Source: Mycobacterium sp.
Lineage (GTDB): Bacteria; Actinomycetota; Actinomycetes; Mycobacteriales; Mycobacteriaceae
Direction of reading: 5' to 3'
Assembly (NCBI GenBank): GCA_020438845.1
Contig: JAGQTV010000028.1
Coordinates: 62,001 to 126,000 of the forward strand
Length of the DNA stretch: 64,000 bases
The notes under the pieces were generated by a model that was given only the letters and a program-made list of their open reading frames with translations, was not told where the DNA came from and did not search any database. Positions 5,112 through 63,543 of this stretch are shown piece after piece. Every line of letters starts with the position of its first letter. The stretch's first letter is position 1. Both the position numbers and the translations under genes were made by a program.

Positions 5112-6068
5112 TCAGTCTGCCGGGGCGACCACCGCCAGCGCGTCCGGGACCGAGGTGAACGTCATTTCCTCCCGTTTCCCCAGGAATTCCCCGTCGATCT
5201 GGCAGGCGATCGGTTCTGCGGCGGTGATCCGCACCCACGGCAGGTCGTCCTCGCGGATCAGGTGCCGGGCCTCGATCTTGGCCTTCCTTGACAGCATTCG
5301 GCGGACCAGCAGCAGGTTGGCAACAGTATTCATGCTGGTCACGGCGAAAATTCCCAGGTTTGTGTCGAACGTGGTCCCTGGATTGGTCCACACTGGCCGA
5401 CTGTTGACGTAGGTCCACGGGCTGGCGTTGGAGACGAATGCGAAATACACGCCGGAGATCGGCTCGTGGTCCGGCATGTGCACTGTCAGCAGGGGATCGC
5501 TGCGGACCTTGGTGAGCATCTCGCGGAAACCTATCCGCATGTAGCGGCCTGCGGTGACTTTGCGCCCCTTGGCGCGCTGGGCCTCAACGGCGGCGACCAC
5601 GTCGCCATCGACGCCCATGCCCGCAGTGAACACCGCCCACCGTTCGACGCAGTCCATCAGTCCGATGCGGCGCCACGGTTCGCCCCGGCGGTGCTCTCCG
5701 AGCAGGTCGATCAGCTGGTTGGTGGCCTCGATGGGGTCGGCGCTGATTCCCAGAGCGCGGGCGAACACGTTGGCCGAACCACCGGGCACCACCGAGACCG
5801 CGGGCAACTCGCCGGCTGCCGGGCGGTCCTGGCCCGGTGTGCCCAACAGGCCATTGACCACCTCGTTCACCGTGCCGTCGCCACCATGGACGATGATCAC
5901 GTCGATCCCGTCCCGTTTCGCGGCCTCGGCGATCTCGATGGCATGGCCACGGTGGTCGGTGTGGGTCACCACGAGTTCCACCCGGCTCTCCAGTGCGTGG
6001 GCCAGCAGGTCACGCCCGGCCGGGGTGGTGGACGTGGCGTTGGGGTTGACGATCAGTACGGCGCGCAC
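5112..6068 (-). CDS. Diacylglycerol/lipid kinase family protein
   Basis: 318-residue DAGK_cat family enzyme, which phosphorylates diacylglycerol or a related lipid with ATP. It opens with VRAVLIVNPNAT and carries the catalytic glycine motif HGGDGTVNEVVNG and PGGSANVFAR. The open frame extends upstream to 6800, but the rest is antisense to other genes. GTG 6068 is chosen because a TACAGT -10 hexamer ends 6 nt before it (leaderless) and homologues begin the same way. It is divergent from the small membrane protein gene across 60 bp. The distal half, with YVNSRPVW and FAVTSM strands, is the usual beta-sandwich domain. Confidence 0.9.
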   Translation of the reverse strand: MRAVLIVNPNATSTTPAGRDLLAHALESRVELVVTHTDHRGHAIEIAEAAKRDGIDVIIVHGGDGTVNEVVNGLLGTPGQDRPAAGELPAVSVVPGGSANVFARALGISADPIEATNQLIDLLGEHRRGEPWRRIGLMDCVERWAVFTAGMGVDGDVVAAVEAQRAKGRKVTAGRYMRIGFREMLTKVRSDPLLTVHMPDHEPISGVYFAFVSNASPWTYVNSRPVWTNPGTTFDTNLGIFAVTSMNTVANLLLVRRMLSRKAKIEARHLIREDDLPWVRITAAEPIACQIDGEFLGKREEMTFTSVPDALAVVAPAD

Positions 6069-6128
6069 GCGCCGACTGTAACGCCAGCGCAGCTTTCGGC
6101 ACTCCGGCACTGGCGCTACATTCGGCGC
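6069..6128. promoter_or_regulatory. Divergent leaderless promoters, DAG kinase / membrane protein
   Basis: Within 60 bp there is a minus-strand TACAGT (6075-6080), 6 nt from the GTG of the kinase gene, and a plus-strand TACATT (6117-6122), 6 nt from the ATG of the membrane protein gene. Both fit mycobacterial TANNNT -10 elements of leaderless transcripts. Confidence 0.55.
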
Positions 6129-6566
6129 ATGACCCACTCCGCTCTGGGGGCGCCCCCGGGAACCGTGCGACACGCCGCAATGCTGGTAGGACTGCAGGGC
6201 GCGATAGGCGTGATCGGCGCCGTAGTGTTCCTGATTCGCGGGCTCGCCGGCGCCGACCGGCACATCGTCAACGGCTACGGCAACGCATTGTGGTTCGGCA
6301 TCTTCGGCGGGGTGCTGCTGCTGGCCGGATGGGCGATGTGGACGGGCCGCCGCTGGGGCCGCGGAATCGGGATCTACGCACAGATGCTGCTTCTGCCGGT
6401 GAGTTGGTACGCCGGGGTGGGCTCGGGCCAATGGGGTTACGCCATCCCGGTTGCCCTGGTGTCGGTCGCCGTACTGGTGTTGTTGTTCAGCCCGGCCACA
6501 ATTCAGTGGTTGACCGGCGGGGCGGATTCGGCCAAGGCCGACAGATCCGGTCCGGACAAGCGGTAG
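6129..6566 (+). CDS. Small integral membrane protein (Rv3217c-like)
   Basis: 145 residues with four hydrophobic segments (about 20-40, 52-70, 76-98 and 100-122 by eye), short loops and a charged C-terminal tail. It matches the conserved mycobacterial membrane protein found at this place in the gene order. No catalytic motif is visible and no function is assigned. ATG 6129 sits 6 nt after a TACATT -10 box. Its last 64 bp overlap the 3' end of the convergent acetyltransferase gene, so the two mRNAs would be complementary over that stretch. Confidence 0.8.
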   Translation: MTHSALGAPPGTVRHAAMLVGLQGAIGVIGAVVFLIRGLAGADRHIVNGYGNALWFGIFGGVLLLAGWAMWTGRRWGRGIGIYAQMLLLPVSWYAGVGSGQWGYAIPVALVSVAVLVLLFSPATIQWLTGGADSAKADRSGPDKR

Positions 6567-6994
6567 GTGATCCATTCGCCGAGTGGGCGGGCACCGACCC
6601 CGTCGTAGAGCGTGATCGCATTGGAATTCCAATCCAGCACAGCCCAACTCAGTCGGCTGTATCCGCGTTCGACGCATACTGCCGCCAGCGTGGCCAGCAG
6701 CGAGCGGGCCAGGCCCCGGCGGCGGAAGCGGGGCCGGACGAACAAATCCTCCAGGTAGACCCCCGCCACCCCGTCCCAGGTGGAGAAAGTGCGGAACCAC
6801 AGCGCCATCGCCGCAATCTCACCGTCCACCTCGGCGAGATGACACGAGGCGACTGCGTCGTCGCCGAAAAGTGCTGCGGCGATCTGAGCTTCGGTCACTG
6901 TGCATTGATCCGACGCTTCCTCGAAGACAGCCAGTTCGCGGATCATCGTAACGATTGCGGACTCGTCGCCCGGGCGCGCCAAGCGGATCGTCAC
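6503..6994 (-). CDS. GNAT-family N-acetyltransferase
   Basis: 163-residue GNAT acetyltransferase. The acetyl-CoA pyrophosphate-binding motif A is clear as RFRRRGLARSLL, preceded by the strand VYLEDLFVRPRF, with motif B near LSWAVLDWNSNAI and YDGVGA. The pattern VYLEDLFV and DWN is typical of the diamine (spermidine/spermine-type) acetyltransferase subgroup, so a polyamine or amino-compound substrate is likely but not proven. Its GTG start overlaps the isochorismate synthase stop by 4 bp, making it the third gene of a coupled operon with the phosphatase and entC genes. Confidence 0.85.
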   Translation of the reverse strand: MTIRLARPGDESAIVTMIRELAVFEEASDQCTVTEAQIAAALFGDDAVASCHLAEVDGEIAAMALWFRTFSTWDGVAGVYLEDLFVRPRFRRRGLARSLLATLAAVCVERGYSRLSWAVLDWNSNAITLYDGVGARPLGEWITYRLSGPDLSALAESAPPVNH

Positions 6995-8079
6995 GACACG
7001 TCCAAGGCGGCCAGGATCGTGCGGAATTTCGTTGTCGTCTCGGCGACTTCGTCAGCGGCATCGGACTCGGCGACGATACCGCCGCCGGCCTGCGCGAGGC
7101 CTTCGCGCCGGTCGGCGGACAACACCGCGCCGCGGATGGCCACCACCCAGCGGCCATCGCCGCTGGCGTCGCACCAGCCCACCGCCCCGGCGTAGAAGCC
7201 CCGATCGCCCTCCAGTTCGGCGATCAAGTCCACCGCTGCCGGCGTCGGCACCCCTCCCACAGCTGGCGTCGGATGCAAGGCAAGCACCAAATCCAAAGCA
7301 GTGGTGGAGTTTTCGCGAAGGGTCCCTCGGATTGGGGTGCTCAGGTGCCACAGCGCGGCCGTGCTGCTCAGCTGCGGCTCCCCGGCGACCTCCAGGTGGC
7401 TGCACAACGGCTCCAACCCGGCCCGCATGGTGTCGACTACCAGTTGATGTTCGTGGCGGTTCTTGCTCGAACCGGCCAGCGCGGCACCGTTGGCGGCATC
7501 GACGGCCGGGTCGTCGGAGCGGGGTGCGGAGCCGGCGAACGGTTGGCAGATCACCTGATCGCCCCGGCGTGCGACAAGCAGTTCGGGGCTGGCCCCCAGC
7601 AGGAAACGTCCGGTGAAACCGCCTCCGGCGGGCGAGAGGTCGACCAGGTAGCCGCACGCCTCGGGGTCGGCGGCCCGCAGTCGGTTCAGGATGGCCATCG
7701 GGTCCAGCGGGGTATCGGACACCAGCCGTAGAGCGCGCGCCAAAACCACTTTCTGCAAAGGGTTTTCCGGGTCCGTCAGCCGCCCCAGTGCCGCCTCGAC
7801 GCGCATTCGGTGGACGTCCGGGTCGGGCAGCGTTCCGGCGATCCGCACGGTCGGAAGCGGCGTGGGCATGGGGGTCGGCAGCACCTGGGACCGGCGCATC
7901 GGCTGGTGCAGAGCGGCTGGGCCGCGAAGGTCGAACGGCAGTGCCCCGACGACGATTTCGGCCGCACCGTCACGCAATGCGGCCGCTGCCTGTGCGACGT
8001 CGCCATACCCGGTTTTGATCCCCTCCCCGACGAGGGTTCCGGCCGGGCTGCTCAGTGCGAACGACGGCAGCGCGGTCAC
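6991..8079 (-). CDS. entC: Isochorismate synthase (EntC/MenF-like)
   Basis: 362-residue chorismate-utilising enzyme that converts chorismate to isochorismate, in mycobacteria the entry to menaquinone. Family blocks seen include NPLQKVVLARA, FLLGASPELLV, QPFAGSAPRS, KNRHEHQLVVDTMR, HLSTPIRG, HPTPAVGGVPT, GFYAGAVGW and the C-terminal ESDAADEVAETTTKF. The GTG at 8079 overlaps the phosphatase stop (GTGA), and its own stop overlaps the acetyltransferase start, so all three genes are translationally coupled. The start at 8079 gives a length close to the family. Salicylate synthase MbtI is a relative; the compact N-terminus and the Rv3215 context argue for isochorismate synthase. Confidence 0.9.
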   Translation of the reverse strand: MTALPSFALSSPAGTLVGEGIKTGYGDVAQAAAALRDGAAEIVVGALPFDLRGPAALHQPMRRSQVLPTPMPTPLPTVRIAGTLPDPDVHRMRVEAALGRLTDPENPLQKVVLARALRLVSDTPLDPMAILNRLRAADPEACGYLVDLSPAGGGFTGRFLLGASPELLVARRGDQVICQPFAGSAPRSDDPAVDAANGAALAGSSKNRHEHQLVVDTMRAGLEPLCSHLEVAGEPQLSSTAALWHLSTPIRGTLRENSTTALDLVLALHPTPAVGGVPTPAAVDLIAELEGDRGFYAGAVGWCDASGDGRWVVAIRGAVLSADRREGLAQAGGGIVAESDAADEVAETTTKFRTILAALDVS

Positions 8080-59141: not shown

Positions 59142-59846
59142 TCAGCCCCGGTCGCGCTTTCGCCGGAACAGTTCCGCCGGCCGGCCCCGGCTCCCGGTGT
59201 GCTCCTGGAAATTCCCGGTGGCGACCAGTTGGTCTTTCATCAGGCGGCGGAATGCGTAGCGGCTGAGTTCGTCGTGCCCGGCGACGGCCTCATGAACCCG
59301 CTGCAGTTCGCTCAACGTGAAGCGAGGACCCAGCAGCCGGTCGGGGTCGGGCTCGGTTTCGTACCGCGACCGGACGTGCTCCTTGGCCAGCCGGACGATC
59401 TTGGGGTGGTCCCACACCAGCTCGCCGGGCCGGTCGACTGAAACCAGGCGAGTCGTGGCGGAGCCTGAGCCGAGCGATTCCAGTTGCTCGGGCCGGACGA
59501 CGGCAACGTAGGCCACCGAGATCACCCAGTCGCGGTCGTCGCGATCGGGGTCGTCGAACACCGCCAACTGATGCGGCCGGACGCCGTGTACACCGAGTTT
59601 GTCGCTCAAGCAGCGCTCCACGGCCTCGGCCAACGTTTCGCGCTCGCGCAGGAATCGGCCCGGCAACGCCCACTTTCCGGTGTCTCCGCGTGCCATCTCG
59701 GCCACCAGGAGCTGCCGCCGATCCAAGTCGACGGTGAGCAGCGCGACGTCCACGGCAACGGTGGGCCTCGGGAAGCTATGGAGTTTTTTGTCGGTGGGTC
59801 TCGCTACCCTTGGCCCATAAGCGTCCGGTATCGCATTGCTGCCCAT
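59142..59846 (-). CDS. NrtR-like Nudix-fold transcriptional regulator
   Basis: 234 residues. The N-terminal Nudix-like domain (about 28-160) contains a degenerate Nudix box LPGRFLRERETLAEAVERCL, where the metal-binding REUxEE glutamates are changed (R-C-L-S-D-K), so it should sense rather than hydrolyse. The C-terminal winged helix has the NrtR signature ELSRYAFRRLMKDQLV and SRGRPAELFRRKR. NrtR regulators respond to ADP-ribose or NAD-related ligands. ATG 59846 is supported by TAGATT ending 7 nt upstream. It is divergent from a three-gene operon across a palindromic site. Confidence 0.87.
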   Translation of the reverse strand: MGSNAIPDAYGPRVARPTDKKLHSFPRPTVAVDVALLTVDLDRRQLLVAEMARGDTGKWALPGRFLRERETLAEAVERCLSDKLGVHGVRPHQLAVFDDPDRDDRDWVISVAYVAVVRPEQLESLGSGSATTRLVSVDRPGELVWDHPKIVRLAKEHVRSRYETEPDPDRLLGPRFTLSELQRVHEAVAGHDELSRYAFRRLMKDQLVATGNFQEHTGSRGRPAELFRRKRDRG

Positions 59847-59888
59847 GAGGTTGAATCTAACATTTCGGGCGCATTGCGCATAAATTAA

Positions 59889-59909
59889 TATGTGCTATTA
59901 TCGCACATA
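59889..59909. promoter_or_regulatory. Palindromic operator of the NrtR-like locus
   Basis: TATGTGC (59889-59895) and GCACATA (59903-59909) are perfect inverted repeats with a 7-nt spacer, in an AT-rich island (59881-59915) that stands out from the GC-rich surroundings. TATAAA/TAATAT hexamers overlap the right edge and could be the -10 of the rightward operon. The size and the position fit an NrtR-type operator (about 21 bp). Confidence 0.7.
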
Positions 59910-59973
59910 ATATAAAGGGCATGGACAGCCCACGAACAAGGAGCGGGTCACTACTACTGAACGGGGGGAACCG

Positions 59974-60756
59974 ATGACTGAGATCAACACCAGCTTCGAC
60001 GTCTACGTCTTGGGGGATGTCGACACGTCGAAGCGGCTGGACATGCTGGCGGCAAAGGCGGCCGAACGCGGCGCGGTCATCGCGCAGACCTTCGCCTTCG
60101 GCGAGGGCGAGGCGGCGGGACACGACGACCTCACCGAGGTCGACGCGGTCGTGGAGGCGCTGGGCCGGGCGATCGCCACCCGCACGGACATCTGGCTGCC
60201 GTTCTGGCTTCAGGATCTGTGCCGCGAAGCCCATCTGCGTCGGCTCAGCCTGGCGCTGCAGAGGCACGGGTTGCATCTGCTCCTGGGCCCGGAGTTGGCG
60301 CCCTGCCCGGTCAAGGGCGGCTTCAACGAGATCGACGCCGCCCTGCGCAGCGAAGTCAGGGCGGTGTTCGCACTCGACGACGCGGCTCTGGCCGCCGCGG
60401 GTGTGCGGTCGTTGGGCGCCGAGATCGAGGCCGCGCTGGCGAAGCCTGCGACGTTCGGCCCGGTGGACGAGCCGCCCTTCGAGTGGTGCGAGCCCGAGGA
60501 GCGCTACTTCAGCACCGCAGAGGCGGCGGCCCTGTTCGGCAAGTCCGCCGACTGGGTGTCGCGCGGACTGCGGGAGAAGACGTTCGTCTACCCCGACGGC
60601 TCACCCGTCGAGCCGGCCAGCGCCGGCAGGGGCGGGCGGCGTCGGTTCACCGCGGACATGGTGCGCGCGATGGCCTTCTCGGCCTACCGCCGCGGCACGG
60701 TGAGCCCGAAGCAACTGCAGGAGGTGTTGGCGGAGCTGGCCCGCGCGGTGCGGTGA
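59974..60756 (+). CDS. Unknown protein with C-terminal HTH (first gene of NrtR-linked operon)
   Basis: 260 residues. The N-terminal 150 residues have an alpha/beta pattern with a Rossmann-like first strand (FDVYVLGDVDTSKRLDMLAAKA) and DIWLPFWLQDLCREAHLRRL; no nucleotide-binding loop was recognised. The C-terminal 75 residues form a MerR/excisionase-like HTH (YFSTAEAAALFGKSADWVSRG, then GGRRRFTADMVRAMAFSAYRRG). A ligand-sensing DNA-binding protein is possible. ATG 59974 has a GGGGGGAA ribosome site. It heads an operon divergent from the NrtR-like gene. Confidence 0.68.
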   Translation: MTEINTSFDVYVLGDVDTSKRLDMLAAKAAERGAVIAQTFAFGEGEAAGHDDLTEVDAVVEALGRAIATRTDIWLPFWLQDLCREAHLRRLSLALQRHGLHLLLGPELAPCPVKGGFNEIDAALRSEVRAVFALDDAALAAAGVRSLGAEIEAALAKPATFGPVDEPPFEWCEPEERYFSTAEAAALFGKSADWVSRGLREKTFVYPDGSPVEPASAGRGGRRRFTADMVRAMAFSAYRRGTVSPKQLQEVLAELARAVR

Positions 60757-60840
60757 CCGCCAGCCGCGGCCGGCTCGTCTGCTGCGCCGCTGCCAGCACC
60801 CCCGTGCATCCGTCAAGCCTGCCGATCCAAGGAGAAAACC

Positions 60841-61416
60841 ATGAATGGCAACAACAACATTCCCAACTGGGCGCACGACCGGCTCATCCACGGCTACTGG
60901 GTGATCCCGGACCGGCTGCTCGCCACGGAGTACCCCGGCGCCAAGACACGCGAGAAAGCTGCGGAGAAGCTGGCGACGCTGCTCGACGCCGGCGTCTCCT
61001 CGTTCGTCGACCTAACCGAAGCCGGTGAGAAGACCTGGGGAGGCAACCGGATGAAGCCCTACGACGCGCTCCTGCGCGACGTTGCGGCCCAGCGCGGGCT
61101 GGCCGTCGACTACCGGCGCCACCCGATTCGCGACTGCTCGATCACCACCGACGTTCATTACGACGAGATCCTTGAGCACATCCGTGCCGAGCTCGCCGGC
61201 GGCAGAGTCGTCGTCGTGCACTGCTGGGGCGGGAAGGGTCGCACCGGCACCGTGGTGGGTTCCTGGCTCATCGACGAGCAGGGCCTGGGCTACCCCGAGG
61301 TGATCGACCGAATGCAGGAGCTGCGTCGCGGATCCAAGAAGGACGATCAGCCAGTGCCCGAAACCCAGGAGCAGCACGACGTCCTTCGTCGTCGCGCCCA
61401 GCGGAAGGGGGCCTGA
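60841..61416 (+). CDS. Dual-specificity/tyrosine phosphatase-like protein
   Basis: 191 residues with the CX5R active site VHCWGGKGRTGTVVG (Cys128, Arg134), preceded by the acidic-loop region IRDCSITTD and followed by helices of the PTP fold. A WPD-type aspartate may be in HPIRD. Family members can act on proteins, nucleotides or phosphoinositides; the operon suggests a small phosphorylated metabolite (for example an ADP-ribose phosphate) but this is inference. ATG 60841 has an AAGGAGAA ribosome site. The next gene starts 2 bp after its stop codon. Confidence 0.82.
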   Translation: MNGNNNIPNWAHDRLIHGYWVIPDRLLATEYPGAKTREKAAEKLATLLDAGVSSFVDLTEAGEKTWGGNRMKPYDALLRDVAAQRGLAVDYRRHPIRDCSITTDVHYDEILEHIRAELAGGRVVVVHCWGGKGRTGTVVGSWLIDEQGLGYPEVIDRMQELRRGSKKDDQPVPETQEQHDVLRRRAQRKGA

Positions 61417-61417
61417 C

Positions 61418-62431
61418 ATGACCACGCGGGACTGGTTCGAACGGCTGGTGGGATTCAGCGAGAGCGACGGCTACACCGCCACCCAGAGCCGGCTGGCCGT
61501 CGAAGGTGATCAACTGGTCTCGACGGTCAACGGCAAGCGCTACGGCATCGGGCAGCTGACCGTGCCGACCCTGGCCGAACTACGCTCCCGGGTGAACCCG
61601 GCTCGGGGACAACGCAGTTCGGCGCACATCGTAGTCGGCGACGTCCGGAAACTGCACTCCGATCCGGAGTTCGAGGGTGCCCTGTTCCAGGTGGCCTCCC
61701 AGTTCAATCTGCTGGAGATGGTCGCGCCGCACGTCACCCCTGAGCAGGGCGTGGCGAGGTATGCCCACGACCCGACCCAGGGTCCGGCATGCGCGATCTC
61801 CGCCGGTGCGGGGACGATCTACCGCAACTACCTGGTGCCGGTGGGTGACGGGATCGGTCAGACTCGTGACCGCCAGATCGACACACTGGCGGGCGTCGGG
61901 GAGGAACTGTCGGATCTGACCGGGCTGCCGGCGTCGCGGTTGTGGCAGATGCGCAACGGCTACGCGCTGTGCACCGCCGAGGGCCTCAGTGCCATCAACC
62001 GCCTTCTGGGCAGCGCATCCGAGGATGTTCTCGACCGGCTGCGCGGGCGACTCGCGATCGGCCTGTACCGAGACGTCGAGGTCACCGACGGCAGCGGTCG
62101 GCGCGTCTCGCAGGCCTACTGCTCAGCCCTTCCCGTGGCCTATTCGGAACTACCCGAGGAGGATTGGGAATCGTTCGCGCGCCTGGTGTTGCAGGCCTCC
62201 TACGAGGCCACGCTGCTGGCCGCGGTCGAGCAGGCCGGCGCCGGCGGCTCCAATAAGGTGCTGCTGACCCGGATCGGTGGGAGCGCTTTCGGCAACGGCG
62301 ACGACTGGATCGATAGTGCCATCGAGCGGGCCATGGGCTTCGTCGAGGATGCCGGCCTGGAAATCATCATCGTCGGTTACTTCGGCGTCAGCCCGGAGGT
62401 CGAGGCGATCGTCGACCGGTATGCGCGGTGA
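61418..62431 (+). CDS. Conserved uncharacterised protein of NrtR-linked operon
   Basis: 337 residues with strikingly conserved-looking blocks: YTATQSRLAVEGDQLVSTVNGKR, FQVASQFNLLEMVAPHVTPEQ, DPTQGPACAISAGAGTIYRNYL, RLWQMRNGYALCT, and a C-terminal LLTRIGGSAFGNGDDWIDSAI. The mix of Gln-, Asn- and Gly-rich turns looks enzymatic, perhaps nucleotide- or ADP-ribose-related, but I cannot name a family with confidence. No signal peptide or transmembrane segment. It is tightly coupled to the phosphatase gene. Homologues seem, from memory, to be spread across bacteria and some eukaryotes. Confidence 0.7.
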   Translation: MTTRDWFERLVGFSESDGYTATQSRLAVEGDQLVSTVNGKRYGIGQLTVPTLAELRSRVNPARGQRSSAHIVVGDVRKLHSDPEFEGALFQVASQFNLLEMVAPHVTPEQGVARYAHDPTQGPACAISAGAGTIYRNYLVPVGDGIGQTRDRQIDTLAGVGEELSDLTGLPASRLWQMRNGYALCTAEGLSAINRLLGSASEDVLDRLRGRLAIGLYRDVEVTDGSGRRVSQAYCSALPVAYSELPEEDWESFARLVLQASYEATLLAAVEQAGAGGSNKVLLTRIGGSAFGNGDDWIDSAIERAMGFVEDAGLEIIIVGYFGVSPEVEAIVDRYAR

Positions 62432-62854: not shown

Positions 62855-63256
62855 TCACACGGCAATCACGGACAGCGCACTGTGAATGCCTCGAAAGTCG
62901 TTCTCGTTGCGCGTGATTAGCGGAATCCCAAGATCGACGGCGACTGCGGCGATAAGAAGGTCGAACCGGCGCGGCTTCGGATCTCGGCCAATGGCGCGCA
63001 CATTTGCGCATAGCGCGCCATACACGCGTGCAGCACCGCGGGCGAAGGGTATCGGGTCGAAGGTGTCGGAAATCCAGTGGTATCTCTGCTCGCGTGCGGC
63101 GTTGCGGAGCGGATCCTCGGTGTGCAGGCCGTACGCAAGTTCGGCGAGGGTGATGGTGCTGATTGCGGCCGTTCTTGCGTGAGCCGCCACTGCTGTGGCC
63201 GGGTAGTCGATGACCACCGAGGTGTCGAGCAGCACTCGTTCGTTGACGGGGCTCAC
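62855..63256 (-). CDS. vapC: VapC-type PIN-domain toxin
   Basis: 133-residue PIN ribonuclease. The metal-binding acids are Asp11 (LLDTSVVIDY), Glu in TLAELAYG, Asp in RRFDLLIAAVA and the final NENDF. The start GTG overlaps the antitoxin stop (GTGA), the standard toxin-antitoxin coupling. PIN toxins of mycobacteria cleave tRNA or rRNA; the exact target is unknown. It differs from the neighbouring vapB remnant, whose own toxin is gone. Confidence 0.9.
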   Translation of the reverse strand: MSPVNERVLLDTSVVIDYPATAVAAHARTAAISTITLAELAYGLHTEDPLRNAAREQRYHWISDTFDPIPFARGAARVYGALCANVRAIGRDPKPRRFDLLIAAVAVDLGIPLITRNENDFRGIHSALSVIAV

Positions 63257-63543
63257 AGCCTGCCCCAGCGATCGTCATCGTTGTCGTTGACCGCAGCGTC
63301 GAGTTGACGTAATTCGGCGGCGAAGCGATCGCCGTCCCAGTCGGGAAGTCGGCTGAGGCCGGCCGCGAGATCGTCGACTGACACGAATCGTTCACGGTGA
63401 TCCGCTGCGGCCCGGTCGTGGGGCACGAGCTCTGCCACTGGCAGGCCATTCCTGGTGACGGTGAAGTGCTCTCCGGCCTCGACGCGGCGCATGATTGCCC
63501 CGCTGTCATTGCGAAGCTCCCGCTGACTGATCACGGTCCCCAT
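63253..63543 (-). CDS. vapB: Phd/YefM-family antitoxin
   Basis: 96 residues with the Phd/YefM N-terminal DNA-binding pattern ISQRELRNDSGAIMRRVEAGEHFTVTRNG followed by PVAELVPH, and an acidic C-terminus (AAVNDNDDDRWGRL) for toxin binding. It probably represses its own promoter. A TACGGT -10 hexamer ends 6 nt before ATG 63543, so the transcript is leaderless, and a GTAGCA/TGCTAC hairpin site overlaps that promoter. Confidence 0.9.
   Translation of the reverse strand: MGTVISQRELRNDSGAIMRRVEAGEHFTVTRNGLPVAELVPHDRAAADHRERFVSVDDLAAGLSRLPDWDGDRFAAELRQLDAAVNDNDDDRWGRL

Follow-up and report, generated by a model that had tools for sequence, protein, structure and literature searches.

Near the right end of a 64,000-nucleotide stretch of Mycobacterium sp. 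DNA (hereafter the window; GenBank assembly GCA_020438845.1, contig JAGQTV010000028.1, positions 62,001 to 126,000), an NrtR-type regulator faces three genes across a divergent, AT-rich promoter region (Table 1). These genes encode a helix-turn-helix (HTH) protein, a cysteine phosphatase and a 337-residue protein, designated U337, which is the core of this report and may act as the hydrolase of an ADP-ribose-responsive cassette. A preliminary description of the window had placed the four genes correctly, and all four open reading frames (ORFs) were confirmed as real. The divergent starts of the regulator and HTH genes lie 127 bp apart. The earlier impression of a tightly spaced operon holds for the phosphatase and U337 genes, which are separated by 1 bp, but not for the HTH and phosphatase genes, which lie 84 bp apart with AAGGAG directly 5' of the phosphatase ATG.

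Table 1. Features of the cassette, in window coordinates
Feature	Position	Strand	Description
NrtR-type transcription regulator, 234 aa	59142..59846	-	Degenerate Nudix domain and C-terminal winged helix
Candidate operator	59889..59909	.	Palindrome TATGTGC-TATTATC-GCACATA
HTH protein, 260 aa	59974..60756	+	N-terminal domain of ~165 aa with unknown fold, and C-terminal DUF7229 HTH
Cysteine phosphatase, 191 aa	60841..61416	+	Dual-specificity/rhodanese-phosphatase kind; HCWGGKGRTG active-site loop
U337, 337 aa	61418..62431	+	Macrodomain-like core protein of the finding; relatives in contigs, plasmids and IMG/VR
U337 conserved blocks	61685..61834	+	FQVASQFNLLEM and DxTQGPACAI...TIYRN; residues 90-139; candidate ligand or active site
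U337 PARG-like C-terminal part	62165..62383	+	Residues 250-322; helix, strand, GGSAFGN loop, helix, strand (presumed secondary structure)

Neither Pfam nor NCBIfam gives U337 a match above cut-off, and PADLOC and PHROGs give none even at E up to 1. When 71 relatives were compared with Pfam, 28 families appeared, the best at E 0.0055, and among the 25 families shown none occurred in more than two members. Apparent similarities to Csx1/CARF proteins (E 0.29) and to TetR_C_18 (E 0.17) were treated as chance, and in text searches of open-licence papers no U337-like family was recognized by name. The preliminary description had called the product of the fourth gene a conserved protein and had singled out VASQFN and TQGPACAI as conserved blocks; its relatives are indeed widespread, and both blocks fall inside the best conserved regions of the family. 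Across 68 sequences, Q91, A93, S94, Q95, F96, N97, L99, E100 and M101 are invariant, as are D118, T120, Q121, G122, P123, T133, R136 and N137. Four invariant blocks, namely QFNLLEM, D-x-TQGP, T-x-x-RN and NGY, make up the candidate site. C125 is likewise invariant in the 68 sequences, yet it is replaced in a giant-virus-like relative (locus L211); Cys125 is therefore not likely to be the catalyst, and covalent chemistry at this residue was rejected.

The setting in which U337 occurs was examined against published predictions. Section 3.8 of a paper by Iyer et al. (2022; PMC9503650) describes ARG-centric systems, i.e., predicted host systems organized around an ADP-ribosylglycohydrolase that undo viral ADP-ribosylation; the parts listed there include Nudix or WYL repressors, rhodanese-phosphatase or calcineurin phosphatases, TY-chaperones and ARPP. 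The partners sought in 88 U337 loci (1.12 Mb) were chosen among these parts, with sirtuins added; the loci comprised the best 80 of 324 related stretches in genome_contigs, five loci from a search of the window's order and three of 337 matching plasmid records. The window itself (L001) was trimmed to 4 kb, and its own NrtR gene is accordingly uncounted. For comparison, 60 control stretches (0.88 Mb), each of up to 17 kb, were cut from the starts of contigs 1-2 in 46 U337-bearing genomes; they are not random draws, 14 genomes were used twice and 15 stretches were shorter, and none matches the four window proteins at E 1e-4.

At least one partner was found in 41 of the 88 U337 loci and in a single control stretch (Fisher 1e-10), which bears out the link to ADP-ribose systems that had been suggested beforehand. 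Merging U337 copies that are more than 90% identical (the pairs L003/L014 and L050/L064) left 41 of 86 loci (Fisher 8e-11). The rhodanese-phosphatase (R-P phosphatase) was the most frequent partner, present in 28/88 loci (Fisher 6e-8), 25 times within 250 bp of U337 and 23 of those on the same strand. WYL regulators followed in 11/88 (Fisher 0.003) and NrtR regulators in 10/88, with weaker matches in L052 and L078, while calcineurin phosphatases occurred in seven loci, ADP-ribosylglycohydrolases in four, sirtuins in two and TY-Chap proteins in two. The Rhodoferax antarcticus locus L041 combines the pair of U337 and phosphatase with neighboring genes for a WYL regulator, a calcineurin phosphatase and a TY-chaperone. 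The partner profiles were trained on hits within these same loci; single-sequence phmmer searches of the 88 loci gave lower or equal counts (e.g., phosphatase 26, WYL 7, ADP-ribosylglycohydrolase 2). All four window genes occur together in a further four loci (L010, L012, L013 and L018), so that the genes are kept together elsewhere, as the preliminary description had proposed. On the tree of U337, the phosphatase label changes 10 times (8 gains or losses being forced), the WYL label 8 times for 8 rows and the calcineurin label 6 times for 6 rows; these many changes imply that the links of U337 to the three partners have been gained or lost many times.

A Pfam scan of adjacent proteins, covering 78 of 97 adjacent ORFs after prior removal of phosphatase hits, returned 63 families; the 25 shown include ADP-ribosylglycohydrolase (2), SIR2 (2), WYL (1) and TY-Chap1 with TY-Chap3 on one protein, next to unrelated families such as LysR and cytochrome c. 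Some loci carry other recurrent neighbors. In the planctomycete loci L049 and L087, a common extra gene (353-362 aa) lies downstream of U337; the L049 copy has no Pfam match and the L087 copy a weak methyltransferase match under cut-off. In the betaproteobacterial loci L032 and L037, U337 is flanked by several members of one protein family (320-360 aa), of which a single short member is also found in L027. The sole partner match among the controls was an NrtR-like ORF (L149), in a genome that holds U337 with an ADP-ribosylglycohydrolase at L019.

A second line of evidence concerns the fold of U337. A PARG profile was built from six other genomes, using six of eight loci with a usable frame (L097 and L133 were left out, and L098 repeats L092). 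Among 8,842 ORFs, the first ten matches to this profile were U337 proteins, the best with E 0.0009, compared with E 0.2 for the best other protein. The C-terminal half of the profile, run against 15,609 ORFs, filled ranks 1-25 and 72 of the 100 best places with U337 proteins, a count weakened by the mutual relatedness of the U337 rows, which makes the ranks not independent. In profile-profile comparison with hhalign, U337 and PARG scored 30.1 against a maximum of 22.7 from 60 column shuffles; with phage and giant-virus-like rows added (L206, L210 and L212 left out), the score rose to 31.9 against a maximum of 23.0 from 100 shuffles. L211 alone scored 34.4 at a probability of 33%, this score having no shuffle null. 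As controls, reversed U337 scored 19 with PARG and six unrelated family profiles 9.3-18.2. Only the C-terminal third aligns; there the match is co-linear, beginning at the helix that precedes the glycine loop and ending at the strand that follows it. Halves of an ordinary macro profile gave weak signals, with 19 U337 proteins in the top 100 for the C-half and 2 for the N-half. Our interpretation is that at least the C-terminal third of U337 is a divergent PARG-type macrodomain whose active site has changed.

Two related assignments were considered and rejected. As an ordinary macro domain (PF01661), U337 reached rank 12 at best with the whole profile and stayed within the hhalign null, the C-half of the macro profile being weakly positive. 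As ARPP-1 (PF20208), it found no support in that the model was not listed in Pfam scans of U337 and its relatives. Genome searches for PF20208 matched 0 of 11 genomes (1 of 12 left out), and the control genomes gave no match either; those for PF05028 matched no genome, controls included, and are hence uninformative, and PF10021 was found in 2/249 genomes of a second phylum.

The distribution of U337 is both broad and patchy. The best 80 of the 324 genome_contigs relatives are 45-82% identical to U337, and their titles range from Actinomycetota to Bacteroidota, Cyanobacteriota, Planctomycetota and others, although several are metagenome-assembled contigs whose titles may be misassigned. U337 is present in 5/200 genomes of the order, the window's own included, and a U337 profile (A2) matched 3/296 genomes in the phylum of a Bacteroidota locus, one of them through a weak, stop-containing fragment of the C-terminus. 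The phylogeny of 68 sequences requires 18 phylum changes, compared with a minimum of 10 and a shuffled mean of 31.8; Actinomycetota and Bacteroidota each form one group and the other phyla are mixed. This pattern suggests that U337 has spread by horizontal transfer. Matches were found in 337 plasmid records, 260 from Klebsiella and 58 from Escherichia, and 288 of the 337 are typed as conjugative. The four enterobacterial plasmids inspected are all F-type, and three have traX and repA near U337. In both inspected Klebsiella plasmids, a gene annotated as SRAP (SOS response associated peptidase) lies ~300 bp upstream of U337 (L008, 7024-8990; L136, 4048-5990), and Pfam SRAP was confirmed for the L008 copy.

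The annotated phage collection gave no U337 match, though contigs in IMG/VR carry U337 at seven loci with five different proteins among them. U337 adjoins SbcC- and SbcD-like phage genes in L209, and the L207 contig also encodes a head maturation protease. In L206 (a phage or prophage contig, 5394-7005), an R-P phosphatase gene lies just upstream of the U337 copy, whose conserved VAS-FNLLEM block is interrupted by one in-frame stop. The giant-virus-like L211 (IMG/VR contig 3300042389_000498, 5401-7260) carries a 29% identical relative within a 619-aa frame, on a contig that also bears ribonucleotide reductase; the tail of this frame is rich in lysine and tyrosine, a composition that we take to resemble that of giant-virus proteins. 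To the right of the window's own cassette, at 62855-63543 on the minus strand, lies a type II toxin-antitoxin-like pair in which a PIN-domain protein of 133 aa overlaps a Phd/YefM antitoxin of 96 aa; each exceeds the Pfam cut-off.

The remaining three genes of the cassette can be assigned with varying precision. NrtR proteins classically control NAD genes, and canonical Nudix enzymes carry the glutamate motif REUxEE. Both domains of the window regulator exceed their Pfam cut-offs (NrtR_WHD, 46.3 bits against 27; NUDIX, 29.7 bits against 21.1), while the NCBIfam NrtR-type equivalog stays far under its own (87 of 400 bits). The Nudix box reads GRFLRERETLAEAVERCLSDKLGV, with RCLSDK at the position of the canonical glutamates. 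Judged by sequence, the protein is thus NrtR-type with its catalytic Nudix glutamates lost, as previously described. Its solved relatives include AraR (5bs6, 9e-19), a MutT/nudix protein (2fml, 6e-17) and 3gz5 (5e-16), as well as 3gz6; we take 3gz5/3gz6 to be an NrtR structure.

The 7-7-7 palindrome reported earlier for the divergent AT-rich region was recovered and is the single such site in the window's genome at a tolerance of up to 2 mismatches. With up to 3 mismatches allowed the pattern is not rare, at least one match appearing in 54 of 100 window shuffles. When repeats of two 9-bp arms around a 7-bp gap were tested locally, the site had P ~0.005 (400 shuffles). The same fixed test in eight relatives found a repeat scoring 8/9 in L012 (P ~0.01) and 7/9 at the matching place in L011 (P ~0.18); the other six scored 5-6 of 9, not above shuffles, and a wider palindrome scan found one in L002. 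Since six of eight relatives lack the palindrome in the fixed test, the operator is a candidate only. In the scheme proposed below, the regulator would probably use the site at 59889-59909.

The phosphatase exceeds the Pfam cut-off for both Tc-R-P (51.3 bits) and PTP-SAK (45.9 bits) and belongs to the rhodanese-phosphatase superfamily. Its HCX5R loop is intact, in agreement with the earlier assignment as a CX5R phosphatase, and H127, C128, G130, G131, G133, R134 and T135 are unchanged across 10 sequences, the window's included. On a Sphaerotilus plasmid, a phosphatase 41% identical to that of the window lies directly 3' of a MavL-like ADP-ribosylhydrolase macrodomain, and upstream of the pair are genes with sirtuin and WYL-regulator annotations; a hydrolase of known kind that acts on ADP-ribose can thus occupy the place of U337. 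The HTH protein ends in DUF7229 (85.6 bits in Pfam). This part matches 210 phage records, none of which covers 80% of the protein, the 10 matches listed spanning 28-33% of its length. The N-terminal domain (query 6-173) occurs without the DUF7229 C-terminus at six places in five other genomes of the order and therefore looks like a separable sensor; a xylose-isomerase-like match of this domain (E 0.05) was taken as chance. Present in five of the 88 U337 loci, among them the window, the HTH protein is an optional part of the cassette.

Taken together, the cassette is best read as an ADP-ribose-responsive variant of the ARG-centric systems in which U337, as a divergent macrodomain-like protein, fills the slot of the hydrolase; we put the probability of this reading at about 0.58. 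From the biology of NrtR proteins we infer a scheme in which the regulator would sit on the divergent AT-rich promoter and repress in both directions, to be released when ADP-ribose or a relative appears, e.g., once host molecules have been tagged by an enzyme from a phage or a competitor. U337, in place of an ADP-ribosylglycohydrolase, would then remove or process the ADP-ribose adduct; the fold has partial sequence support, and U337 probably helps to remove or process such tags. The phosphatase, whose coupling to U337 is observed, could clear a terminal phosphate from the ADP-ribose product or from an unmasked nucleic-acid end, and the DUF7229 HTH protein may serve as a lineage-specific second regulator or sensor.

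Several results weigh against this reading. No ADP-ribosylglycohydrolase gene (PF03747) lies in the window cassette; the genome has a single match, located on contig 53, while the window is on contig 3. Partners are missing from 47 of the 88 loci, many of them cut by contig ends, and from six of the seven IMG/VR loci and three further plasmid loci, so that U337 may also work alone. Taken singly, calcineurin phosphatases (Fisher 0.04) and NrtR (0.03) are more weakly associated, and the NrtR label changes just twice on the U337 tree for 7 rows. As to the fold, the hhalign probabilities with PARG are low (10-33%); the N-terminal, GGG-QEE-bearing half of the PARG profile gives no U337 signal (p 0.99), and U337 has QGP at the place of the GGG...QEE catalytic signature, which together make canonical PARG catalysis unlikely. 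Ordinary macro (20.0) and a MavL-like protein (16.8) score within the shuffle null, and with macro even the reversed U337 reaches 25.4. PARG and Macro were not listed in Pfam scans at E up to 10, either among the 25 of 28 families shown for 71 relatives or for 10 relatives (6 of them within the 71), and PDB profile searches with U337 returned no PARG or macrodomain. In PHROGs, L211 has a weak endolysin match (E 2e-4); it is confined to this one relative, and an endolysin identity for U337 was rejected.

A broader proposal, which we advance tentatively and to which we give somewhat less than even odds, is that U337 founds a new class of macrodomains in which the QEE pair is replaced by the invariant QFNLLE / D-x-TQGP site. 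Such a class would have spread horizontally over bacterial chromosomes, F-type plasmids, tailed phages and giant-virus-like genomes and would serve both sides of ADP-ribose warfare, with NrtR/WYL sensors and the phosphatase making it an inducible adduct-repair operon in hosts.

Among the competing explanations, the strongest, though in our view unlikely, follows the preliminary description in having the phosphatase act on phosphorylated ADP-ribose: U337 would bind or process not macromolecular adducts but free ADP-ribose derivatives serving as signals or second messengers, and the cassette would be a detoxification or signal-degrading device. Small molecules suit an NrtR-type sensor as well as a phosphatase, and the six IMG/VR loci in which U337 occurs without a detected phosphatase are what signal-degrading phage proteins might look like. 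A TIR-annotated gene on the Escherichia coli plasmid L134 (9606-10445), ~3.6 kb from U337 and beyond repA, points the same way, but its Pfam TIR_2 match is under cut-off and the association was seen in just one of the four enterobacterial plasmids inspected. Linkage to ADP-ribosylglycohydrolases, sirtuins and TY-chaperones fits macromolecular adducts better, though such cases are few (4, 2 and 2 of 88).

More doubtful still is the idea that U337 is not a macrodomain at all but an enzyme or binding protein of unrelated origin, with a strand-loop-helix at its C-terminus that came to resemble PARG by convergence, the ADP-ribose link of the neighborhood being real. The silent N-half of PARG, the macro and MavL-like profiles that stay within the null, the alignment of the C-terminal third alone and the absence of macrodomain matches in Pfam and PDB would all agree with convergence. 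Against it stand the co-linearity of the match, the rise of the hhalign score once divergent rows were added, and the high ranks of U337 (19/100) with the C-half of ordinary macro, six other families reaching only 9.3-18.2 in hhalign. An ordinary NAD-metabolism regulon, in which NrtR controls NAD recycling genes beside incidental neighbors, is very improbable: the classical role of NrtR, which also appears among the reference titles of PMC9503650, and an NCBIfam NrtR-type match far under cut-off speak for it, but none of the four genes is for NAD biosynthesis, NrtR or WYL regulators and phosphatases lie near U337 in several phyla, the distribution is patchy (5/200 genomes of the order) with plasmid and phage copies, and the lack of a second genomic palindrome at up to 2 mismatches argues against an operator shared with NAD genes.

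ADP-ribose tags are a chemical mark used in the fights between microbes and viruses. If the ADP-ribose-responsive reading of the cassette holds, ADP-ribose-sensing operons in which no ADP-ribosylglycohydrolase is present gain, with U337, a defined candidate for their missing hydrolase, and a strikingly conserved family with no over-cut-off match in the libraries searched is brought into an ADP-ribose setting. The family ties together chromosomes, conjugative plasmids, phages and a giant-virus-like contig, and the cassette provides a testable case in which hosts may hold ADP-ribose repair off until ADP-ribose itself signals attack.

The individual parts of the cassette can be compared with known proteins. 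The regulator shares its domain order and degenerate Nudix box with NrtR/AraR-type Nudix regulators, but its neighboring genes differ, being neither NAD nor arabinose genes. With bacterial PARG (PF10021; SCO0909 and DRB0099, as described in passages of PMC11833690, where bacterial PARGs protect against an antibacterial RNA-modifying toxin), U337 appears to have in common the C-terminal helix-strand-glycine loop-helix-strand and G-x-G-x-F; it differs in lacking the QEE signature (QGP instead), in an N-terminal half without detectable similarity and in an extra middle region with the invariant NGY block. A member of the MavL-like arginine-ADP-ribose hydrolase macrodomains (PF16062/PF24754, formerly DUF4804) precedes the same kind of phosphatase on the Sphaerotilus plasmid noted above, but with a single sequence as template only the glycine-loop region aligns with U337, and the similarity is not significant (probability 0.3%, score inside the null).

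At the level of the whole locus, the closest counterpart is the ARG-centric system. The window has a Nudix (NrtR-like) regulator and a phosphatase of the rhodanese-phosphatase superfamily, and calcineurin-type phosphatases and TY-chaperones occur in some U337 loci. By Pfam, the four window genes include no ADP-ribosylating gene, and sirtuins, the one such family scanned for in the loci, accompany U337 in 2/88; in the ARG-centric systems an ADP-ribosylglycohydrolase stands beside such genes, and within the running text of section 3.8 of PMC9503650 no component was recognized as U337. The preliminary description therefore stands in its regulator, phosphatase, conserved protein, co-occurrence and ADP-ribose link, with the HTH protein reduced to an optional member. 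Its remark that the locus could be matched to no named system gives way to a closer placement, because the layout matches that of the predicted ARG-centric systems, as a variant without an adjacent ADP-ribosylglycohydrolase.

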